A DNA stretch of 33,305 bases, from positions 1 through 33,305 of IMG/VR virus record IMGVR_UViG_3300045010_000538; one strand, written 5' to 3'. Below, piece after piece: positions 2,023 through 9,362 of the stretch. The position numbers were made by a program, and so were the translations under genes. This DNA comes from a virus. Each line of letters begins with the position of its first letter. Positions within the stretch are counted from its first letter, which is position 1. Under the pieces are notes generated by a model. It saw only the letters and a list, made by a program, of their open reading frames with translations, did no database searches and was not told where the DNA came from.

Positions 2023-2823
2023 GTGAAGCTCCTACCGATCGCAGTCCACGACGAGCTGGTCTACTACTTCGCGAACGCCGAGTGCGACCAAGGCGCGAAG
2101 TCGAGCCACGAAGCCCTGGTCGCCATGATCGAACGTGGCGGCCCGAGCTCCGGCGGCGCCGACCCCGAGAACCAGATCACCGACCACCGCTTCGGCTGGC
2201 CCGCTCACGGCGGCGAGTGCCTCGTCGGCAAGGCCCGCCGCGTCTGGTGCGCCCTTCACGCCCTCCCACAAGGTACCCCGCATCACAACGTGCTCTTCGC
2301 GGCCCACGGCTGGATCCAGTGGTCTGGCGTCATCGACAGCGCCTTCGGCCGCGGCACCGCCGCCAAGGTCGTCGCCGCCGTCGGCCCCCACGTCGGCGTC
2401 GCCCTACTCACGTCGACCGCCCGCGACGGGTTCGCCGCCGCGCAGAAGGCCCGTCGTGAACGCTTGCTCGCCGCGGCCACAAGCGAGCACCTGAGCGCCT
2501 CTCGCTCCCCGAAGCCGCCCCCGCTCCGGTGGAAGGACCGCAGGGTCGCTTGGGAGAACGAGGGCGGGTGGCTCGTCGCCACCGTGATGATCGCTCGAAG
2601 CAAGGACGTCTCGGCGTCGTCTCGTCGCGACGCGGAAGAGGACCTCGCTCGGGTCCGGCGCGAGGTCGCCGAGCTCGTAGCCGGGGCCTACGAGGCGTAC
2701 GCGGTCGCACGCGGGATCCGCCTCGAGACCCCGGAGGAGCAGGCGCGCCAGCGCTCGCGAGCGCGCACGGTCCGCCTGACGCCGTTGAGAATGCCTCGCC
2801 GCCTCGGAGGGCTCGGGCGATGA
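2023..2823 (+). CDS. Unrecognised phage protein, 266 residues
   Basis: A GTG start with a near-perfect ribosome binding site (AGGAAGGGGG at 2008-2017) supports expression. I do not recognise the family. The first 130 residues look globular, with several His and Trp residues (HNVLFAAHGWIQW near residue 90). A charged helical stretch around residues 140-150 is followed by a second folded part, and the C-terminus (about residues 200-266) is a long Arg/Ala/Glu-rich helix. No signal peptide, membrane segment or catalytic motif is seen. Its stop overlaps the start of the helix-turn-helix gene (ATGA), so the two are probably translated together and may act together. Confidence 0.7.
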   Translation: MKLLPIAVHDELVYYFANAECDQGAKSSHEALVAMIERGGPSSGGADPENQITDHRFGWPAHGGECLVGKARRVWCALHALPQGTPHHNVLFAAHGWIQWSGVIDSAFGRGTAAKVVAAVGPHVGVALLTSTARDGFAAAQKARRERLLAAATSEHLSASRSPKPPPLRWKDRRVAWENEGGWLVATVMIARSKDVSASSRRDAEEDLARVRREVAELVAGAYEAYAVARGIRLETPEEQARQRSRARTVRLTPLRMPRRLGGLGR

Positions 2824-3137
2824 CCGGTGCCGTCCTCGGCCGCGCGAACATCATGAAGCTCCTCGGGATCGCGGACTGGCGCACCGTCGAGAAGCTCGCA
2901 GAGCGCCAGGTCGACCCGCTGAGCCTCCAGTGGGACGCCTTGGATCGACCGTGGCTCGACCTCGCCGAGTACGACGCCTGGCTGACGCGCAACAACCGCG
3001 GGCATCGCTACATGCGCGTCGAGCGCCGCGTGAAGGCGGACCCAGTACTCCTCGAGCGGCTCGGGGATCTCCTGCCGGCCGCAGCGCCTCGGCGGAAGGT
3101 CAAGAACAAGGCCACCGGAGACCGCGCGCGAGAGTAG
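2820..3137 (+). CDS. Small helix-turn-helix (excisionase/MerR-like) DNA-binding protein
   Basis: This is a 105-residue protein translated from an ATG that overlaps the previous stop by ATGA. Residues about 10-55 fit the winged helix-turn-helix layout of excisionase/MerR-like proteins: IMKLLGIADWRTVEKLAER as the two helices, then a wing, then WLDLAEYDAWL, which matches the usual closing 'dL.aWL' helix. The C-terminus is Lys/Arg-rich (RRKVKNKATG), as expected for nucleic-acid contact. It could be a phage regulator or an architectural protein. A small-terminase role is less likely, because a better candidate lies next to the large terminase gene. Confidence 0.65.
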   Translation: MTGAVLGRANIMKLLGIADWRTVEKLAERQVDPLSLQWDALDRPWLDLAEYDAWLTRNNRGHRYMRVERRVKADPVLLERLGDLLPAAAPRRKVKNKATGDRARE

Positions 3138-3197
3138 CCATGGGCCGGCTCTAGTCGTCAAGACACCAAAATCCGGGCCGGGCACTTCTCCGAGCGG

Positions 3198-3335
3198 ATG
3201 CAGGCGCTGAGCGAAAACAGCGAGCAATGGGCATCGAAACGCGCTCGCGATCTCCGGTTGCGCCATGTGCGGATTCACGTACCCTTTCGGTACGATCCCG
3301 CGCAAACCAAGCGCGCAATACGTGCGGCGCGGTGA
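3198..3335 (+). CDS. Possible 45-residue ORF or decayed gene tail
   Basis: Reading on in the frame of the helix-turn-helix gene after its TAG gives 20 codons and then an ATG at 3198. The resulting basic peptide (MQALSENSEQW at its start, ending TKRAIRAAR) looks protein-like. There is no ribosome binding site, and several codons end in A or T, unlike neighbours. It overlaps the inverted repeat at 3278-3294. It may be a remnant of a longer gene, a stop-codon readthrough extension, or noncoding. Confidence 0.2.
   Translation: MQALSENSEQWASKRARDLRLRHVRIHVPFRYDPAQTKRAIRAAR
3278..3294. promoter_or_regulatory. Perfect inverted repeat, operator- or hairpin-like
   Basis: CGTACC (3278-3283) and GGTACG (3289-3294) are a perfect 6-base inverted repeat around CTTTC. 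The right arm runs into TACGAT (3291-3296), which resembles a -10 element of high-GC bacteria, though no convincing -35 lies 16-18 bases upstream. A repressor site for the nearby helix-turn-helix protein is a reasonable guess. Confidence 0.4.
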
Positions 3336-3420
3336 GCCTCCGAGCGGGTCCGGGGCGGAACCGAGGGAGAGGCCGAGCGCCTCCCGGCGAGCAGGGCTCG
3401 CGCGTGGATGGGGTCCCTCG

Positions 3421-3450
3421 TGCGTCCGGCGGCCGTAGTTGGCGGACGCA
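3421..3450 (+). promoter_or_regulatory. 8-base-pair hairpin in the leader of the small basic protein
   Basis: TGCGTCCG (3421-3428) and CGGACGCA (3443-3450) pair perfectly around a 14-base loop. The hairpin ends about 22 bases before the ATG at 3473 and leaves the GGAG ribosome binding site (3462-3465) free. It could regulate translation or stabilise the message. There is no T-run, so it is not a standard terminator. Confidence 0.4.
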
Positions 3451-3472
3451 GGAAAGAAGCCGGAGACAGACG

Positions 3473-3760
3473 ATGGCGAAGAAGACGACGGCGCAGGTGC
3501 GGGCCAGCGACGGGAAGAAGGTCCTCCGCAAGCCGTACCAGGCGGGGATGCGGACGGGCCGGGACATGGCTCGCTCGGGGGCGGTCAAGCGGAATGGGAG
3601 CGGCCTGAGCCGCAAGGGCGCGGCGACGCTGCGCGCGGCGCCCGGCGCGGCTCCTCGGGGCCAGCGATCGTTTCTCCGCGGCGTCCGCGACGGCGTGAAG
3701 GCCCAGCGCGCGATGCCGCGGGCGGGGAGCGCGACGGCCGCGCGATCGAGCGGCAGCTGA
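3473..3760 (+). CDS. Small, highly basic protein, 95 residues
   Basis: The ATG at 3473 follows a GGAG element by 7 bases; the frame is open further upstream but reads as non-protein-like Arg/Ser-rich sequence, so this start is preferred. The product begins MAKKTTAQVRASDGKK and is rich in Lys, Arg, Gly and Ala with almost no acidic residues, suggesting nucleic-acid binding or a largely disordered protein. No domain is recognised. Its TGA (3758-3760) abuts the stop of the convergent minus-strand gene with no space for a terminator. Confidence 0.5.
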   Translation: MAKKTTAQVRASDGKKVLRKPYQAGMRTGRDMARSGAVKRNGSGLSRKGAATLRAAPGAAPRGQRSFLRGVRDGVKAQRAMPRAGSATAARSSGS

Positions 3761-4183
3761 TCAGGTCAGCCCGCGGAGACGAGACGACGTCTTCGCCTTC
3801 GTCGGCCACTTCGGGCGGGGCGACTTGAGTTCGAGGCCGAGTTGAGCGGCGACAACCTCCCCGTCTAGGTATTTGTCGCCGAGCTCGAGGAGGCCCAGTG
3901 CGCGGAGGAACTCTTCCTTCTGTGCGCGGGACTGAAACGTGATCGCGACCCAGTATTCCGAGTCGGTCGCGTCACGGAACCGCTGCTCTTCGTCCTTGGC
4001 GCGCTCCTGGAAGGCCGTCTGAACACGCTCGAGCGCCTGCTCGACGGCGACGGGGCCGGCATCTTCCTCGGGGGGCGCCTCGGGAGAGGCGTCCCGGAGC
4101 GGTGTCGGACCACGGAGGGCGACGGGGCCGCCTCGGAGCGACGCGGGGCCCCGGAGGGGAAGCGGGGAACGATTACGCGGCAT
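3761..4183 (-). CDS. 140-residue partner of the PP-loop protein, function unknown
   Basis: This minus-strand gene starts at an ATG at 4183 with GGAGGA just upstream and overlaps the end of the PP-loop gene by 11 bases, so the two are coupled. The first 35 residues are a low-complexity tract of repeated LRGP-like units (PLRGPAS, LRGGPVA, LRGPTP). The middle (about 48-75) is a charged helix, VEQALERVQTAFQERAKDEE. The C-terminal half has a compact motif, YWVAITFQSRAQKEEFLRAL, followed by GDKYLDGEVVAAQLG. This resembles uncharacterised phage proteins I have seen described but cannot name. The overlap suggests work with the PP-loop enzyme, perhaps as adaptor or targeting factor; that is inference. 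Confidence 0.7.
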   Translation of the reverse strand: MPRNRSPLPLRGPASLRGGPVALRGPTPLRDASPEAPPEEDAGPVAVEQALERVQTAFQERAKDEEQRFRDATDSEYWVAITFQSRAQKEEFLRALGLLELGDKYLDGEVVAAQLGLELKSPRPKWPTKAKTSSRLRGLT

Positions 4184-4928
4184 GGGTCCTCCGGGCGGCG
4201 TACTCGCGCCGCTGGATGTCGAGGTGGGCGAGCGGGAACCACTCGAGGATCTTCGCGTAGTCCCGCGGGAAGCGCTCCTTGATGGGCGCGAGGAAGCGGT
4301 AGTCGATCCCGTCGAAGCTCCGGCCGAAGAGCTCGTAGTCGACCGGCAGCTTGCAGCGTTCGGTGTGCAGACAGCACTCCACGTCGGCGATCTTCCAGTC
4401 GTAGACGGCGAAGAAGCTCCGCCGCGTGTGGTTCGCGGACCCGTACCGGCGCACGTTGGCGAGGCGGATGGGCGAGTCCGCGGTGCGGGTTCCGATCGCG
4501 ACGTACGCATCGGGCGCGCCGGCGACGCGGCGGACGTGGGCCTCGACCTGCTCGTAGCTGAGCCGGGGCATCGGCGTCGCCTGGAGCGCGCGGACCCGGT
4601 CCGGTGGCTGGTAGACGAAGTTCTCCAGCATCCGCGGAAGCGAGGGGTGCGGGAGGCGGAGGATCGGCGTCCCGAAGAAGTCCTCGTAGTAGCGCAGCCC
4701 CTGCTCGACGAACTCGAGCCCGGGCACGAGGTACAGGTAGAAGAGGACGAGCCGCGGGAACATCTCGCGCAGCCGGAGGGCGGCCACCACGCTGTCCTTG
4801 CCCGCGCTGAAGCTGACGATGCAGGTGTCGCCGGACATGGCGCGGACGAAGCGGCAGAGCTCCTCGGAGTTCGCAAAGTGTCGCGGAGACTCGGCGGCGG
4901 CGGGCTTATCGGGGACAGCGCGGGGCAC
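4173..4928 (-). CDS. PAPS-reductase / PP-loop adenine nucleotide alpha-hydrolase family protein
   Basis: This is a 251-residue protein. SFSAGKDS at residues 39-46 is the PP-loop (S-x-G-K-D-S) that binds the ATP/PAPS phosphate in PAPS reductases, DndC-like and related enzymes. The fold continues with helices and strands such as VVAALRLREMFPRLVLFYLY. A cysteine cluster (CCLHTERC) lies near residues 184-192 and might bind metal or take part in redox chemistry. It starts at GTG 4928 with AAAAGGAG 7 bases upstream, inside the end of the preceding gene. Phage relatives are common, but their substrate is usually unknown. Candidate roles include nucleotide or sulfur chemistry, for example DNA or tRNA thiolation; the sequence does not decide. 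Confidence 0.85.
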   Translation of the reverse strand: MPRAVPDKPAAAESPRHFANSEELCRFVRAMSGDTCIVSFSAGKDSVVAALRLREMFPRLVLFYLYLVPGLEFVEQGLRYYEDFFGTPILRLPHPSLPRMLENFVYQPPDRVRALQATPMPRLSYEQVEAHVRRVAGAPDAYVAIGTRTADSPIRLANVRRYGSANHTRRSFFAVYDWKIADVECCLHTERCKLPVDYELFGRSFDGIDYRFLAPIKERFPRDYAKILEWFPLAHLDIQRREYAARRTHAA

Positions 4929-5092
4929 GGGGCTGCTCCTTTTCGGCCGGCAGGGCCGCGTGGCAGGTCATGCGGATCCAGGACGAGAGGTCGAGCCCCA
5001 GCCGGCGCGCTTCGGCCAACGAAGGCCTCGTGCTCGGTGGGGGTCATGCGCAGGAGCAGGTGCTTCGTGCGCAGCTCGGGGGGCGAGCTCAT
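4906..5092 (-). pseudogene. Ribbon-helix-helix-like regulator gene with a +1 frameshift
   Basis: From the ATG at 5092 the frame reads 25 residues typical of a small Arc/MobC-like protein (TKHLLLRMTPTEHEAFV). The matching continuation, AEARRLGLDLSSWIRMTC, is in the +1 frame: skipping one G at 5017 joins them into a 61-residue protein ending at a TAA at 4906-4908. The strand-helix-helix pattern, with 'LSSWIRM' as the second helix, fits ribbon-helix-helix DNA-binding proteins. Without the shift the first frame runs on with no stop through the PP-loop region, giving nonsense-like sequence. Possibilities are a true inactivating indel, a sequencing error, or programmed frameshifting. The coding region overlaps the PP-loop start by 23 bases. 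Binding to the adjacent GATATC boxes would make it the cassette's own repressor. Confidence 0.6.
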
Positions 5093-5117
5093 ATCAGGAT
5101 GATATCTGATAGATATC
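5090..5117. promoter_or_regulatory. Operator-like array of three GATATC-type boxes
   Basis: CATATC (5090-5095), GATATC (5101-5106) and GATATC (5112-5117) start exactly 11 bases apart, so they face the same side of the helix. Pairs of them also form inverted repeats (ATATC-5 bases-GATAT and GATATC-5 bases-GATATC). The stretch is strikingly AT-rich for this genome and lies between the divergent starts at 5092 and 5139. It covers the -10 element and start codon of the minus-strand cassette. Evenly phased short boxes are the usual operator form for ribbon-helix-helix repressors. Confidence 0.65.
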
Positions 5118-5127
5118 CATCCGGCAA
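5099..5127 (-). promoter_or_regulatory. Sigma-70-like promoter of the minus-strand cassette, probably leaderless
   Basis: Read on the minus strand: TTGCCG (5127-5122) is a -35 with four of six consensus bases, followed by a 17-base spacer and TATCAT (5104-5099), a -10 with five of six. Only six bases (CCTGAT) separate the -10 from the ATG at 5092, so transcription should begin at or next to the start codon. There is no ribosome binding site before that ATG, consistent with a leaderless message. Confidence 0.55.
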
Positions 5128-5138
5128 AGGACAGATCC

Positions 5139-5726
5139 ATGGCCGAGACGGATCGGCCCGAAACACTTCGGGAAAAGCCCCAGCAGCCCCGGCCCAAGAC
5201 GACGAAGGCGACGCCGAGGAAGCGCTCGGGCGGTCGCCAGGACCTCACGCTGACGCGCGCGCGTCACGAGGCGATCGTCGAGTCCGTAAGGTGCGGCAAC
5301 TACTACAAGACGTCGGCGAAGGCCGCCGGCGTTCCACTCTCGACCTTCTACGAGTGGATGCAGAAGGGCCGCGAGACGACCAGACAGCCCTTCCGGAAGT
5401 TCTACCTCGACGTCGCCTCCGCTCGTGAGGTCGCCGTCGATGAGCACGTGAAGTCCATCCACAACGCGGGCTTCACGCAGTGGCAGGCCCACGCGTGGCT
5501 CCTCGAGCGGACGGATCCGGGGCGGTTCGGTCGGAGGGACCCGGCCGTCGCCGAACTCGAACGAAAGGTCGCCGAGCTTGAAGGGCGCCTCGCTGCGGCA
5601 GCGGATTCAGGACGTCGAAGCGATCCTCAACGAGAGGGCTTCCAGGTCCTCGGCGCCGATGGAGTCGCGCTCGATCCGCCTGAACGGGCCACAGACGAAG
5701 GCCTACCGGAGCCTCCAACCGGGTAG
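5139..5726 (+). CDS. terS: Terminase small subunit
   Basis: This is a 195-residue protein directly before and overlapping the large terminase gene. After a basic, disordered N-terminus (residues 1-35), residues about 40-75 form a helix-turn-helix: ARHEAIVESVRCGNYYKTSAKAAGVPLSTFYEWMQKG is the classic order of phage small terminases, where Y-K-T-S-A-x-x-A-G-V and TFYEWM are the recognition elements. A central helical region and a coiled coil (ELERKVAELEGRLA, about 138-151) suit oligomer formation. It should recognise the packaging site and load the large subunit. The last 49 codons overlap the large subunit gene in another frame and have poor GC at third positions, suggesting that this tail is under weaker constraint. 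Confidence 0.88.
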   Translation: MAETDRPETLREKPQQPRPKTTKATPRKRSGGRQDLTLTRARHEAIVESVRCGNYYKTSAKAAGVPLSTFYEWMQKGRETTRQPFRKFYLDVASAREVAVDEHVKSIHNAGFTQWQAHAWLLERTDPGRFGRRDPAVAELERKVAELEGRLAAAADSGRRSDPQREGFQVLGADGVALDPPERATDEGLPEPPTG

Positions 5727-7065
5727 TTCGGTCTGCATGCCGTGGGGGCGTGGCGTCGGGAAGAGCCTTTTCGCGAGGTTCGAGTGGTACGACCACATCC
5801 GCCGCTGGGACGGGGTGCCGCGACAGCGAGCGCTCAAGCGCCTGCTCGGCGTGCGCATCGTGCTCCTCATGCCGACGTTCAAGGCGTGTAAGGACATCCA
5901 CGGCAGGCTGGTCGACGAGGAACTCGCGCCGCAAGGGCCGTGGGGATTTCTTGGGGCCCGGATCAACCACACCGAGTGGACGATCAGCTTCCCGGGCGGG
6001 AGCTGGATACAGTTCTTCGGCGCCAAGGAGGCGAACGCCTCTCGCGGCCTTCGCTGCGACATCGTGACGCCCGACGAGAGCGACGACATCGACCCTGGCG
6101 TCCTCGACGCCGTCGTGAAGCCGTGGTTCTCCGAGCCGTGGTCGCTCCGCAAGACGCTGCTCGGCGGGACGCCGCGGCGTGGCCGCTACGGCCTGCTCTA
6201 CCGCGAGCACAAGAAGGGGCTCGTTGGGGACGAGGCTCGAGCGCGCGACCTTGCGACGATCGAAGACGACGCCGAGCGCGTGAGCCTTCTCGGCCAGCGC
6301 AAGCGCTACAGTTTTCACGCCACCTACCGGGACGCTCCCGAGACAGTGGATCCAGCGTATGTCGCCGAGGTGCGCGCGGACATGTACGAACACGGGCAAG
6401 GCCAGGTGTTCGAGCGCGAATGGGAGTGCTCGTTCGAGTCGGGCGAAGGTCTCGTGTACCCGATGTTCGACGAGCGCTTCCACGTCCGCGAGGGTACAAC
6501 TGGGGCGTGGTCCGAGGTGCTCGTGGGTGGCGACCACGGCTGGGAGGACCCGGGAGTGCTGCTCGTGGTCGGCGTGCGCGGCAACGGCGCCGATGCGGAG
6601 TGCCACATCCTCGAAGAGGTCTACGCACAGCACCAGATCGAGGACTGGTGGGTAGAACGAGCTCGCGAGATCGTGAGGAAGTACCCGGGGGCACGCTGGT
6701 ATCCTGACCCGTCACGACCCGACCGGGTCGAGGCGTATCGGCGCAAGGCCGGCGCGCGCGTCCAGGAGGTCAACAACGCCATCGAGGATGGCGTCTCAGC
6801 GGTCGCGAACAAACTCGCTATTCGCAGGGCGGACAGCGGCGACTCGGAGGTGCGGTGGGCGCAGCTCTACGTCAGCCGAAAGTGCCCACGGACGATCGAA
6901 GAACTCAGCAAGTACAGGCGCAAGCGCGACCCGAGGAACGCCGACAAGTTCCTCGACGACGTCGAGGACAAGAACAACCACGCCATGGACGCGCTCCGCT
7001 ACGCCATCTTCTCCCGCTTCGGTGGCCCCTCGCGCACACGCACCGAGTTCGGTCCCGGCTACTAA
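5578..7065 (+). CDS. terL: Terminase large subunit (ATPase and nuclease)
   Basis: This 495-residue protein has a packaging-motor ATPase with Walker A GRGVGKS at residues 57-63, an IVTPDES Walker-B-like strand near 162-168 and a likely coupling motif in LLGGTP near 195-200. The nuclease domain begins GGDHGWEDPGVLLVV near 317 and ends with HAMDALRYAIF near 468-478, the usual closing acidic motif. It translocates phage DNA into the prohead through the portal and cuts it. The TTG at 5578 is preferred to the ATG at 5659 because codons between them are already strongly GC-ending in this frame, while the overlapping small-subunit frame is not. The TTG start remains a judgement. Confidence 0.93.
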   Translation: MKGASLRQRIQDVEAILNERASRSSAPMESRSIRLNGPQTKAYRSLQPGSSVCMPWGRGVGKSLFARFEWYDHIRRWDGVPRQRALKRLLGVRIVLLMPTFKACKDIHGRLVDEELAPQGPWGFLGARINHTEWTISFPGGSWIQFFGAKEANASRGLRCDIVTPDESDDIDPGVLDAVVKPWFSEPWSLRKTLLGGTPRRGRYGLLYREHKKGLVGDEARARDLATIEDDAERVSLLGQRKRYSFHATYRDAPETVDPAYVAEVRADMYEHGQGQVFEREWECSFESGEGLVYPMFDERFHVREGTTGAWSEVLVGGDHGWEDPGVLLVVGVRGNGADAECHILEEVYAQHQIEDWWVERAREIVRKYPGARWYPDPSRPDRVEAYRRKAGARVQEVNNAIEDGVSAVANKLAIRRADSGDSEVRWAQLYVSRKCPRTIEELSKYRRKRDPRNADKFLDDVEDKNNHAMDALRYAIFSRFGGPSRTRTEFGPGY

Positions 7066-7071
7066 GGCGTC

Positions 7072-8880
7072 ATGTTGTCGTCCCAGTATGCCGCGGAGCG
7101 TGACCTCGCCGAGAAAACGCTTCGTGCGAACGTTGCGGCGCGAGCCTCTCGCATGGACATGCTGGTCCGCTATGCCGAAGGGCGCCAGTACGAGGGCCGC
7201 CCGTCATTCTGGGACGGGTCGGTGCCGCTCTTCCGGAGGGCGCCATGCGTGGTCTACGCGGCGCCGGCCATGGCCGCGCACTCGTTCGTGGCACTGCTAC
7301 TCGGCGAGGAGCGGTTCTGCGGCCTGACCTCGCATCCTGGCGAGAACGATGCGGCGTTCGACGATGCCTTCGGTCTGGACGAGGCCGACTCGGCCACGCT
7401 GGACCGATTCACCGAGTCGATGCTCCGGCGCGGGCACGTGTTGCGCTCGCTTCGAGCGTTGCTCTACCGGTCGCTCGTGGCCGGCTGCGCGGTCGCAGTC
7501 GGCTCGATGCGACACGGCACACCCGCTCTGTCGACCCTCCCCGCGGAGTGGTGCACGGCGGAACGCGGGGCCGACGGCCAGGTAACCAAGCTCGAGGTCC
7601 TCTACCCGCAGATCGAGGACGAGACCGCGGCCGACGGGTCGAAGCATCCGGTGTGCATGTTGTACCGGCGAGTCATCGACGGCACGACCGACACGACCTA
7701 CCTCCCAACGCGAGCGCTCCTCGACGGCACGAAGCCGGAGGAGTGGCGCGTCGACAGGGAGCGCACGGTCGAGCACGGTTTCGGGTTCTGCCCGGTCGTG
7801 TGGTACGCCAACCGGCACGAGTCCAACGACCTCGTGGCGGTCGACTCAGGGCGTGCGATCCATGACCTCGTGCTGGACGAGCTCGACGGGTTGAACTTCG
7901 CGCTATCGGTGCGGCACCGCGCCGCGATGATGTTGGGCGACCCGATGATCGTCGAGATCGGCGTCGACAAGGACTACCAGCAGGCGCCACAGGGCGCGGT
8001 CTGGCGCAGCGCGCACATGGGTCAGGGCGACCACCCGGACAACTACAGGTGGGGCCGCTGGGAGCAAAGCGGCGCCATGGGGACGATGAAAGGCCCGGGG
8101 ACGACGTGGCGGTACGAATCGCCGCAGACGAAGGTCGACATCCTCACGCTGCCATCGGGCGCACTCGACCCGCTCGTCAAGAACGCTGACGATCTCCTCG
8201 CCACCGTGGCCGAGAGCACGGCCTGGGTCCCCACGGACGCGAAGCAGCTGAGCCTCGGCACGGCACCGAGTGGCAGGGCGTTCGAGTGGCTGCACAAGAA
8301 GCAGATCGACCGCTGTCTCGAGCTGCGAGAGGACTTCGGCGAGGGCTGCATTCTGGCGTGCGTGGGGGTGCTGCTTCGCATGGTCCTTGCGACCCCGGCG
8401 GCGCGGGTCCGACTCGGCGGCGTCCGTGAAACGCAGGCGATCCTGGGGCGCTTTCTCGTGGCCGTCGAGGGCGGGTTCGACTGGGTGCCGCCAGAGTTCA
8501 AGTGCAAGTGGGGGCCGTTCTTCCCGCCGACCGAGGCGGACATGAGGCTCGTGAGCGAGGCGGCGCGCGCCGACCTACTCGCGGGCATCATCACGAAGCG
8601 CACGGCCGTCGAACGGCTGGCGCCGTTCTACGCCATCAAGAACGTGGATCAGTACCTCGATGCGCTTGAGGGAGAGGAGGCCGAGCGCGACGGCGCGCTC
8701 GAGGGCGCTCTGCGGAACCTTCAGAAGGCGAGCGCGGTGGACGAGGACGAAGCGGGCGAAGCGGACGAAGGTGTTGCGGCGTCGGCCCCCACGCCCGCGG
8801 CGAAGCCTGTTCCGCCGCGCAGGACCACTGTGGAGGTGGGCGTCGTGCGAGGCCGTACGCGCGCCGCCGCAGGAGGATGA
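7072..8880 (+). CDS. Portal protein
   Basis: This 602-residue protein lies immediately after the large terminase, the normal portal position, with a matching size. It has a long helical N-terminus (RASRMDMLVRYAEGRQY), then a mixed core and a long C-terminal helical section where residues such as VPTDAKQLSLGTAPSGRAFEW resemble the loop before the portal stem and wing. The last 70 residues are an acidic then Pro/Arg-rich tail. It would form the dodecameric ring through which DNA enters and to which the neck attaches. No single diagnostic motif is visible, so the call rests on position, length and overall pattern. Confidence 0.85.
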   Translation: MLSSQYAAERDLAEKTLRANVAARASRMDMLVRYAEGRQYEGRPSFWDGSVPLFRRAPCVVYAAPAMAAHSFVALLLGEERFCGLTSHPGENDAAFDDAFGLDEADSATLDRFTESMLRRGHVLRSLRALLYRSLVAGCAVAVGSMRHGTPALSTLPAEWCTAERGADGQVTKLEVLYPQIEDETAADGSKHPVCMLYRRVIDGTTDTTYLPTRALLDGTKPEEWRVDRERTVEHGFGFCPVVWYANRHESNDLVAVDSGRAIHDLVLDELDGLNFALSVRHRAAMMLGDPMIVEIGVDKDYQQAPQGAVWRSAHMGQGDHPDNYRWGRWEQSGAMGTMKGPGTTWRYESPQTKVDILTLPSGALDPLVKNADDLLATVAESTAWVPTDAKQLSLGTAPSGRAFEWLHKKQIDRCLELREDFGEGCILACVGVLLRMVLATPAARVRLGGVRETQAILGRFLVAVEGGFDWVPPEFKCKWGPFFPPTEADMRLVSEAARADLLAGIITKRTAVERLAPFYAIKNVDQYLDALEGEEAERDGALEGALRNLQKASAVDEDEAGEADEGVAASAPTPAAKPVPPRRTTVEVGVVRGRTRAAAGG

Positions 8881-9362
8881 TGTTCGAGTCGACCTTGCCC
8901 AGGACCGACGAGGATCGGCAGCGGATCGCCGACGTGCTGAACTCCTGCGTCGCCTCGGGGATCGACCTCTATAACGGTGCGAAGTTCGCGCACTGGAACG
9001 TGCGAGGCCCCGCGTTCGGCCCGTTGCACGCGCTCTTCGGCGAGGTCGCCGGCGTCGTCGCCGACCAGGTCGACATCCTCGCCGAGCGCGTCTCGCAGGT
9101 CGGCGTACTCGCGCTGGGCACGACGCAGCAGGTCGCGGCCGAGTCCAGACTCGACGACATGCCGACGGACGAGACCGACGGCTACGCGCTCTGCCGGATC
9201 CTGTTCGACCGGGTGCGGCAGTGCGTCGCGCTGCTCTCGCAGGCTCGAAACGACAGCGACGAGCTGGGCGCGCTCGACACGTCGCAACTCTTGAGCGACG
9301 CCATCCTGGCGTTCGACAAGCTCGGCTGGAAGCTCGTGGCGCACGTCCCCCGCGGTGCCTGA
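8880..9362 (+). CDS. dps: Dps-family ferritin-like protein encoded in the head module
   Basis: This 160-residue protein matches Dps along its whole length. The ferroxidase signature is complete: AHWNVRG gives His38, PLHALF gives His50, and DILAER gives Asp65 and Glu69. The spacings of 12, 15 and 4 equal those of Listeria innocua Dps. Further hallmarks follow: LALGT, then MPTDETDG, and a C-terminal helix ending WKLVAHV. Dps forms 12-mers that oxidise and store iron and, in some species, bind DNA. AGGAGG lies three bases before this ATG, which overlaps the portal stop (TGATG); an ATG at 8877 is the alternative. A Dps between portal and MuF genes is unusual: it may be packaged, protect DNA from peroxide, or be a cargo or decoration protein. 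Confidence 0.9.
   Translation: MFESTLPRTDEDRQRIADVLNSCVASGIDLYNGAKFAHWNVRGPAFGPLHALFGEVAGVVADQVDILAERVSQVGVLALGTTQQVAAESRLDDMPTDETDGYALCRILFDRVRQCVALLSQARNDSDELGALDTSQLLSDAILAFDKLGWKLVAHVPRGA

Follow-up and report, generated by a model that had tools for sequence, protein, structure and literature searches.

In phages and prophages of several bacterial phyla, including a 33-kb fragment of an uncultivated virus, a gene for a PP-loop ATP-pyrophosphatase is paired with a gene for a small partner protein, and at many of these loci short cationic proteins with a common C-terminal tail are encoded close by. Based on sequence comparisons we favor, with only slightly more confidence than doubt, the reading that the two proteins would form a two-subunit PP-loop/adaptor enzyme that acts on the tails of the adjacent short cationic proteins, an undescribed peptide-modifying or peptide-attaching system. 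In the stretch of 33,305 nucleotides that was analyzed (the window), the cassette lies on the minus strand between late genes, with the following features.

3473-3760, plus strand: gene for a small cationic protein of 95 amino acids, tail-tagged, ending ...ATAARSSGS-stop
3761-4183, minus strand: partner (adaptor) gene with the YLDG domain, ATG start, 140 amino acids
4173-4928, minus strand: PP-loop ATP-pyrophosphatase gene, GTG start with AAGGAG upstream, 251 amino acids
4906-5093, minus strand: interrupted gene for an RHH/NikA-like regulator, PF21983 match across the break
5091-5117: operator-like array, ATATC/GATATC at 11-bp steps plus the inverted repeat GATATCT-3-AGATATC
5127-5099, minus strand: sigma-70-like promoter TTGCCG-17-TATCAT, a consensus match (1 found, 0.1 expected from shuffles)
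5139-5726, plus strand: terminase small subunit, divergent from the cassette (phrog_4102, E=4.1e-21)
5578-7065, plus strand: terminase large subunit (phrog_2, E=8.5e-32)

A sequence-only reading of this DNA had described three overlapping minus-strand genes in a stretch whose other genes were all on the plus strand. Reading frames and starts were found for the overlapping PP-loop and partner genes, which confirms this part of the description; the partner start codon lies 11 nt inside the 3' end of the PP-loop gene, and the PP-loop frame gives the strongest minus-strand codon-position signal in the window. The RHH gene, in contrast, is frameshifted as sequenced, and although the other clear genes are indeed on the plus strand, a few weaker minus-strand frames pass a simple composition test. 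The plus-strand gene at 3473-3760, which that reading missed, is a member of the cassette system. It has a Shine-Dalgarno-like start at 3473, its stop codon (3758-3760) abuts the convergent stop codon of the partner gene (3761-3763), and its product has no Pfam or PHROG match. Elsewhere in the window, a Ferritin/Dps-like protein (8877-9362, plus strand; PF00210, 4e-10; phrog_3636) is encoded between portal and head genes, which is unusual in a structural operon.

The RHH-like frame starts at 5093 and is broken by one extra base near 5020 (GTTGGCCGAAGC). When read across the break, with X at the gap, it matches PF21983 (NikA-like RHH) over residues 8-44, with E=0.0018 and 18.8 bits against a cut-off of 27. 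Because this match spans both frames, the gene either was damaged recently or has been misread in sequencing; the description of the cassette therefore holds except for its third gene, which is not intact as sequenced. The promoter and the operator-like array precede this gene. ATATC occurs at 5091, 5102 and 5113, a spacing of exactly 11 bp, with only one further copy in the 33 kb, and this phasing, together with the consensus match of the promoter, makes the proposed autonomous control of the cassette plausible. Membership of an RHH gene in the cassette is not conserved among relatives, where other regulators are in place (for example, an XRE-type protein in locus L012). A regular-expression search for upstream RHH genes gave nothing usable, and inspection by eye picked out RHH-like genes in that position only at L092 and L015, where no Pfam match backed them. 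In the window the cassette is flipped and is probably under its own RHH-type control, whereas the tagged gene has kept the orientation of the late genes.

The position of the cassette relative to the terminase genes was assessed across 50 viral records; phrog_2 identified TerL in 31 of them and phrog_9 in a further five. Of these 36 records, 33 have the PP-loop gene no more than 3 kb from TerL and 34 have the two genes on one strand. Actinobacterial prophages with another terminase type likewise show the order PP-loop, partner, small terminase, large terminase, portal, and flipped cassettes stay beside the terminase, both in the window and in Cutibacterium phage CA1NRNZ, L013, L063 and L082. 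This placement does not hold for transposable-phage-like loci such as L001 and L038. Such proximity to TerL does not fit a moron, if that term means an accessory gene inserted at random.

Several lines of evidence connect the PP-loop protein to its partner. Among the named phages, all nine tblastn matches to the partner adjoin a PP-loop match. Alignment-based scans yielded 80 viral and 62 bacterial-genome loci. By profile HMM, 131 of 149 loci with a PP-loop gene (L147, missed by the distance rule, included) have the partner core domain immediately downstream of it. Fourteen of the remaining loci have a ParB_N protein whose last 45 residues align with the partner core and one has a diverged copy, so that a partner in some form is directly downstream in 146 of the 149, in phages and prophages of several bacterial phyla. 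In two loci, L069 and L134, the two proteins are naturally fused in a single chain. Values of dN/dS for close pairs are mostly 0.03-0.3 for both genes and 0.4-0.5 in Gordonia; both genes of the pair are under purifying selection. The two-component coupling suggested in the sequence-only reading is thus well borne out, as is the linkage in relatives for the two-gene core, and the PP-loop protein and its partner are a true two-component unit and an obligate pair.

The partner core has the pattern D-[ST]-E-Y-W ... R ... K/E-FL ... GDKYLDG ... A..LG. In the window protein the N-terminal third, before the adaptor domain, carries low-complexity PLRGP-type repeats. Profile searches with the partner against Pfam, NCBIfam, PADLOC and PDB sequences gave nothing convincing, and its structural model (pLDDT 81) matched no PDB fold, an absence that proves nothing. 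The PHROG families give independent agreement on the pairing: the one most touched by the partner and its relatives is phrog_9353, a ParB-type partner protein, and the match is at its C-terminus: positions 176-239 match with E=0.011 for the window partner alone and 1e-4 for the best relative, and also by iterated HMM. By this comparison the partner is the stand-alone form of the domain that ends the ParB-like protein of a sister clade. Gordonia and Bifidobacterium phages (L005-L007 and L004) carry a duplication of the partner core within one protein, with no recognized tagged peptide.

The window PP-loop protein has the motifs SFSAGKDS, GTRTADSxxR and FGRSFDGID and matches phrog_2302 with E=1.9e-18. 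Its AlphaFold model (pLDDT 94.8) resembles the PAPS domain of FAD synthase and PAPS/APS reductases with Z scores of about 12-13, over 154-193 aligned residues at 9-17% identity; a TtuA-TtuB structure is also among the fold matches, and a PDB sequence search with the PP-loop profile found sub-threshold TtuA only. The P-loop motif is intact. Across 147 sequences the near-invariant residues are the PP-loop itself, GxR..D...R, F205, P221, D223 and P232. No cysteine is conserved: the best column has cysteine in 54 of the 147 sequences, and there is no conserved C-terminal cysteine, so that the family has neither the CysH catalytic cysteine nor the Fe-S cysteines found in DndC and TtcA.

These features bear on the usual annotation of the family. 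PHROG and record names call it a PAPS reductase, and phage papers have interpreted it as an assimilatory enzyme encoded by an auxiliary metabolic gene (PMC10434257, PMC11318856). CysH and the PAPS domain of human FAD synthase do have the fold, the SFSxGKD PP-loop and the GxRxxxSxxR motif in common with the phage enzyme, but the latter lacks the catalytic cysteine (ECGxH in CysH), has its own C-terminal FGRSFDGID...FPxDYxxIL region, and is accompanied by an obligate, non-metabolic small partner and by tagged peptides; the Pfam PAPS_reduct match to the window protein falls below the cut-off. An assimilatory role is therefore hardly credible, being already contradicted by these sequences, and the label of sulfate-assimilation enzyme appears to be wrong for this family. 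Lambda NinC, which is also named PAPS reductase, is not a family member.

Sulfur chemistry of the DndC/TtcA/ThiI type, put forward from the window sequence, is also unlikely, since there is no conserved cysteine and no cysteine desulfurase (PF00266) was found in 37 phage records, where a host enzyme could still serve. DndC requires C280 for its [4Fe-4S] cluster (PMC11662687). SspD, DndC and BrxP belong to the same PP-loop superfamily as the phage enzyme, with weak profile similarity to SspD in six of 40 members and to BrxP in one, but the phage enzyme has neither their Fe-S cysteines nor a linked desulfurase. A broader proposal is that the enzyme modifies phage DNA, in base or backbone, before packaging, with the basic tagged proteins as mere DNA-binding helpers. 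The position ahead of the terminase and the SspD and BrxP similarities are consistent with this, as is the DNA-associated domain of ParB type in the sister clade, with ParB-methyltransferase fusions among its nearest relatives. The lack of a conserved cysteine and of a desulfurase in the 37 records counts against it, and it leaves unexplained an invariant C-terminal tail that switches with the enzyme clade, as described below. We regard DNA modification as unlikely. In L051-L053, a ParB-DNA methyltransferase fusion (2485-3837) lies about 1 kb upstream of a cassette of the stand-alone clade.

A tree of the 147 PP-loop sequences separates a clade with ParB-type partners (17 sequences) from a clade with stand-alone partners (130 sequences), with support of 100/100 for the split; the window protein groups with L012, L013 and the Myxococcota locus L092. 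The partner carries ParB_N in the former clade. Supply of ParB_N in trans was considered for the latter and rejected, as ParB_N is absent from 34 of 36 stand-alone-clade records; none is found in the window. The pair phrog_424/phrog_9353, a phage 'PAPS reductase' with a ParB-like protein, represents the sister clade and has the YLDG domain of the partner at the end of phrog_9353, but differs in the presence of ParB_N and in the tail found nearby (RRxSxGGxGG rather than [RK][ST]SG[ST]). IbrA/IbrB and E. coli YbdN/YbdM are likewise pairs of a PP-loop and a ParB-type protein encoded by overlapping genes, YbdN has the GIRADES and PIYDWK motifs in common with the phage enzyme, and IbrA/IbrB have been described as co-activators of prophage genes (PMC4490671). 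That the phage pair is such a transcriptional co-activator is nevertheless very unlikely: the DUF3440 region of those proteins was found in none of 40 members by Pfam scan, ParB_N is missing from nearly all stand-alone-clade records, and YbdM has no YLDG domain. The ybdN-ybdM locus of E. coli K-12 (L154, 2748-4570) is a cellular pair with the same motif layout, and its lack of the YLDG domain implies that PP-loop and ParB-type proteins have been paired more than once.

The 95-residue protein encoded beside the window cassette ends in a sequence that recurs next to its relatives. We defined a strict tail as [R/K][S/T]SG[S/T]-stop and searched ORFs of at least 20 amino acids in all six frames, calling tail genes from open frames. 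Strict tails were found on 65 of 34,010 ORFs in 139 non-redundant loci, and 59 of these, spread over 45 loci, were no more than 1.8 kb from the PP-loop gene; permuted control tails occurred 0-2 times each in the same 139 loci. The other six belong to one Burkholderiales family (MATRLVRGR...GRSSGS; L038, L044, L106, L111, L119, L125) encoded 3-5 kb upstream of the cassette on the same strand. Sixteen near-complete phage records (738 kb) contain 19 strict tails, of which 18, from 12 genomes, lie no further than 1.5 kb from the PP-loop gene; phage lambda has none. The gene at 3473-3760 is the only ORF in the window with a strict tail. The tagged proteins are short and basic (median 35 amino acids, net charge +8). 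Their bodies have no detectable similarity, 76 proteins forming 46 clusters unlinked by blastp; the tail codons vary synonymously, and up to three tagged ORFs occur in tandem at a locus. Loci of the ParB clade have a different tail, RRxSxGGxGG, just upstream of the PP-loop gene (ARRKSAGGTGG, RRRSLGGKGG, ARRKSMGGAGG and RRKSSGGGGG).

Two new scans provided 68 loci outside the original sample. In the stand-alone clade, a strict RSSGS-type tail was found nearby in 16 of 30 loci, with none far away and no GGxGG tail; in the ParB clade, [RK]..GGxGG was found in nine of 32 and RSSGS in none, and eight of these nine tails were within 155 bases upstream of the PP-loop domain on the same strand. When one tagged peptide was used as a query, four contigs were recovered, two of them new, and a PP-loop gene adjoined the match in all four. 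The tail thus tracks both the cassette and the clade of its enzyme. Searches for relatives of the window's tagged protein in viral contigs, and of two tagged peptides in named phages, found none, as expected if the bodies change fast.

Many loci have no recognized tail. Within the first-sample stand-alone clade a strict tail was nearby in 45 of 122 loci, so that over half are without one, and looser tails (STSGS, SSSGS, GTSGS, SGSSGS) add about ten; none was found in the Gordonia and Cutibacterium phages, most ParB-clade loci have none, and for all loci the proportion without is half or more. In Pasteurella phage Pm86 (L003, 6105-6421), tail-tagged ORFs lie in an unannotated stretch between partner and terminase, from which it appears that gene callers miss such peptides.

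In the system we propose, the short cationic neighbors would be cognate partners of the enzyme and most likely its substrates. The enzyme may recognize the C-terminal tail, [R/K][S/T]SG[S/T]-COOH here and RRxSxGGxGG-COOH in the ParB clade, and would spend ATP, yielding AMP and PPi, to activate either the C-terminal carboxylate or a tail serine, the simplest chemistry given that cysteines are absent. Members of the PP-loop superfamily form an AMP-activated intermediate with release of PPi. The activated tail could then be transferred to an amine, a hydroxyl or a nucleic acid, by which the peptide would be modified or joined to something. The strongly basic character of the peptides, and the location of their genes beside the packaging genes, make DNA awaiting packaging a plausible target. 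A precedent for a PP-loop enzyme handling the C-terminus of a small protein is TtuA-TtuB, in which a PP-loop thiolase engages the C-terminal tail, ending in GG, of a small carrier protein. TtuB is a ubiquitin-fold protein and TtuA depends on cysteines and Fe-S, whereas the phage tails sit on unrelated cationic peptides. A role for the YLDG adaptor could be to hold the tail or the second substrate; in ParB-clade proteins this domain is joined to a nucleotide-binding domain of ParB type, whose fold is known in fusions with many activities (PMC12704722).

A more specific version of this mechanism, which we offer as a doubtful conjecture, is that a PP-loop/adaptor ligase adenylates the tail and, shortly before packaging, links the peptides covalently either to phage DNA or to a packaging protein, a peptide-to-DNA or ubiquitin-like tagging in which tail and enzyme clade would co-evolve. 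Weighing against any reading of the tagged proteins as substrates, they could be co-located packaging proteins with a tail that is read by something else. A further alternative is that the enzyme matures, or confers immunity to, short cationic toxins such as bacteriocin- or superinfection-exclusion-like RiPPs by modifying or neutralizing the peptide. The loci do resemble RiPP systems in their small precursor-like ORFs, several per locus, with a variable body and an invariant recognition segment next to an ATP-using enzyme, and many tagged peptides look like cationic amphipathic helices. Others, however, consist of Lys/Gly repeats and resemble protamines, neither an exporter nor a protease was noticed next to the tagged peptides, and the genes are in the late region rather than the lysogeny region; unlike in RiPP systems, it is the extreme C-terminus that is invariant. 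The open-access literature searched yielded no RiPP class that employs this PP-loop family. We consider a toxin-related function quite unlikely.

The open-access papers searched mention the pair only under PAPS reductase and ParB annotations, and against these and the databases searched our comparisons point to the tail-tagged peptide system beside the PP-loop pair as new. Since the family is routinely reported as auxiliary metabolic genes of sulfate assimilation, the contrary evidence bears on many virome papers. The tail-tagged peptides offer a tangible starting point for identifying the target of the enzyme. If the peptides are modified or conjugated, this would be a new post-translational or DNA-linking chemistry, carried beside the DNA packaging genes by phages of several bacterial phyla.
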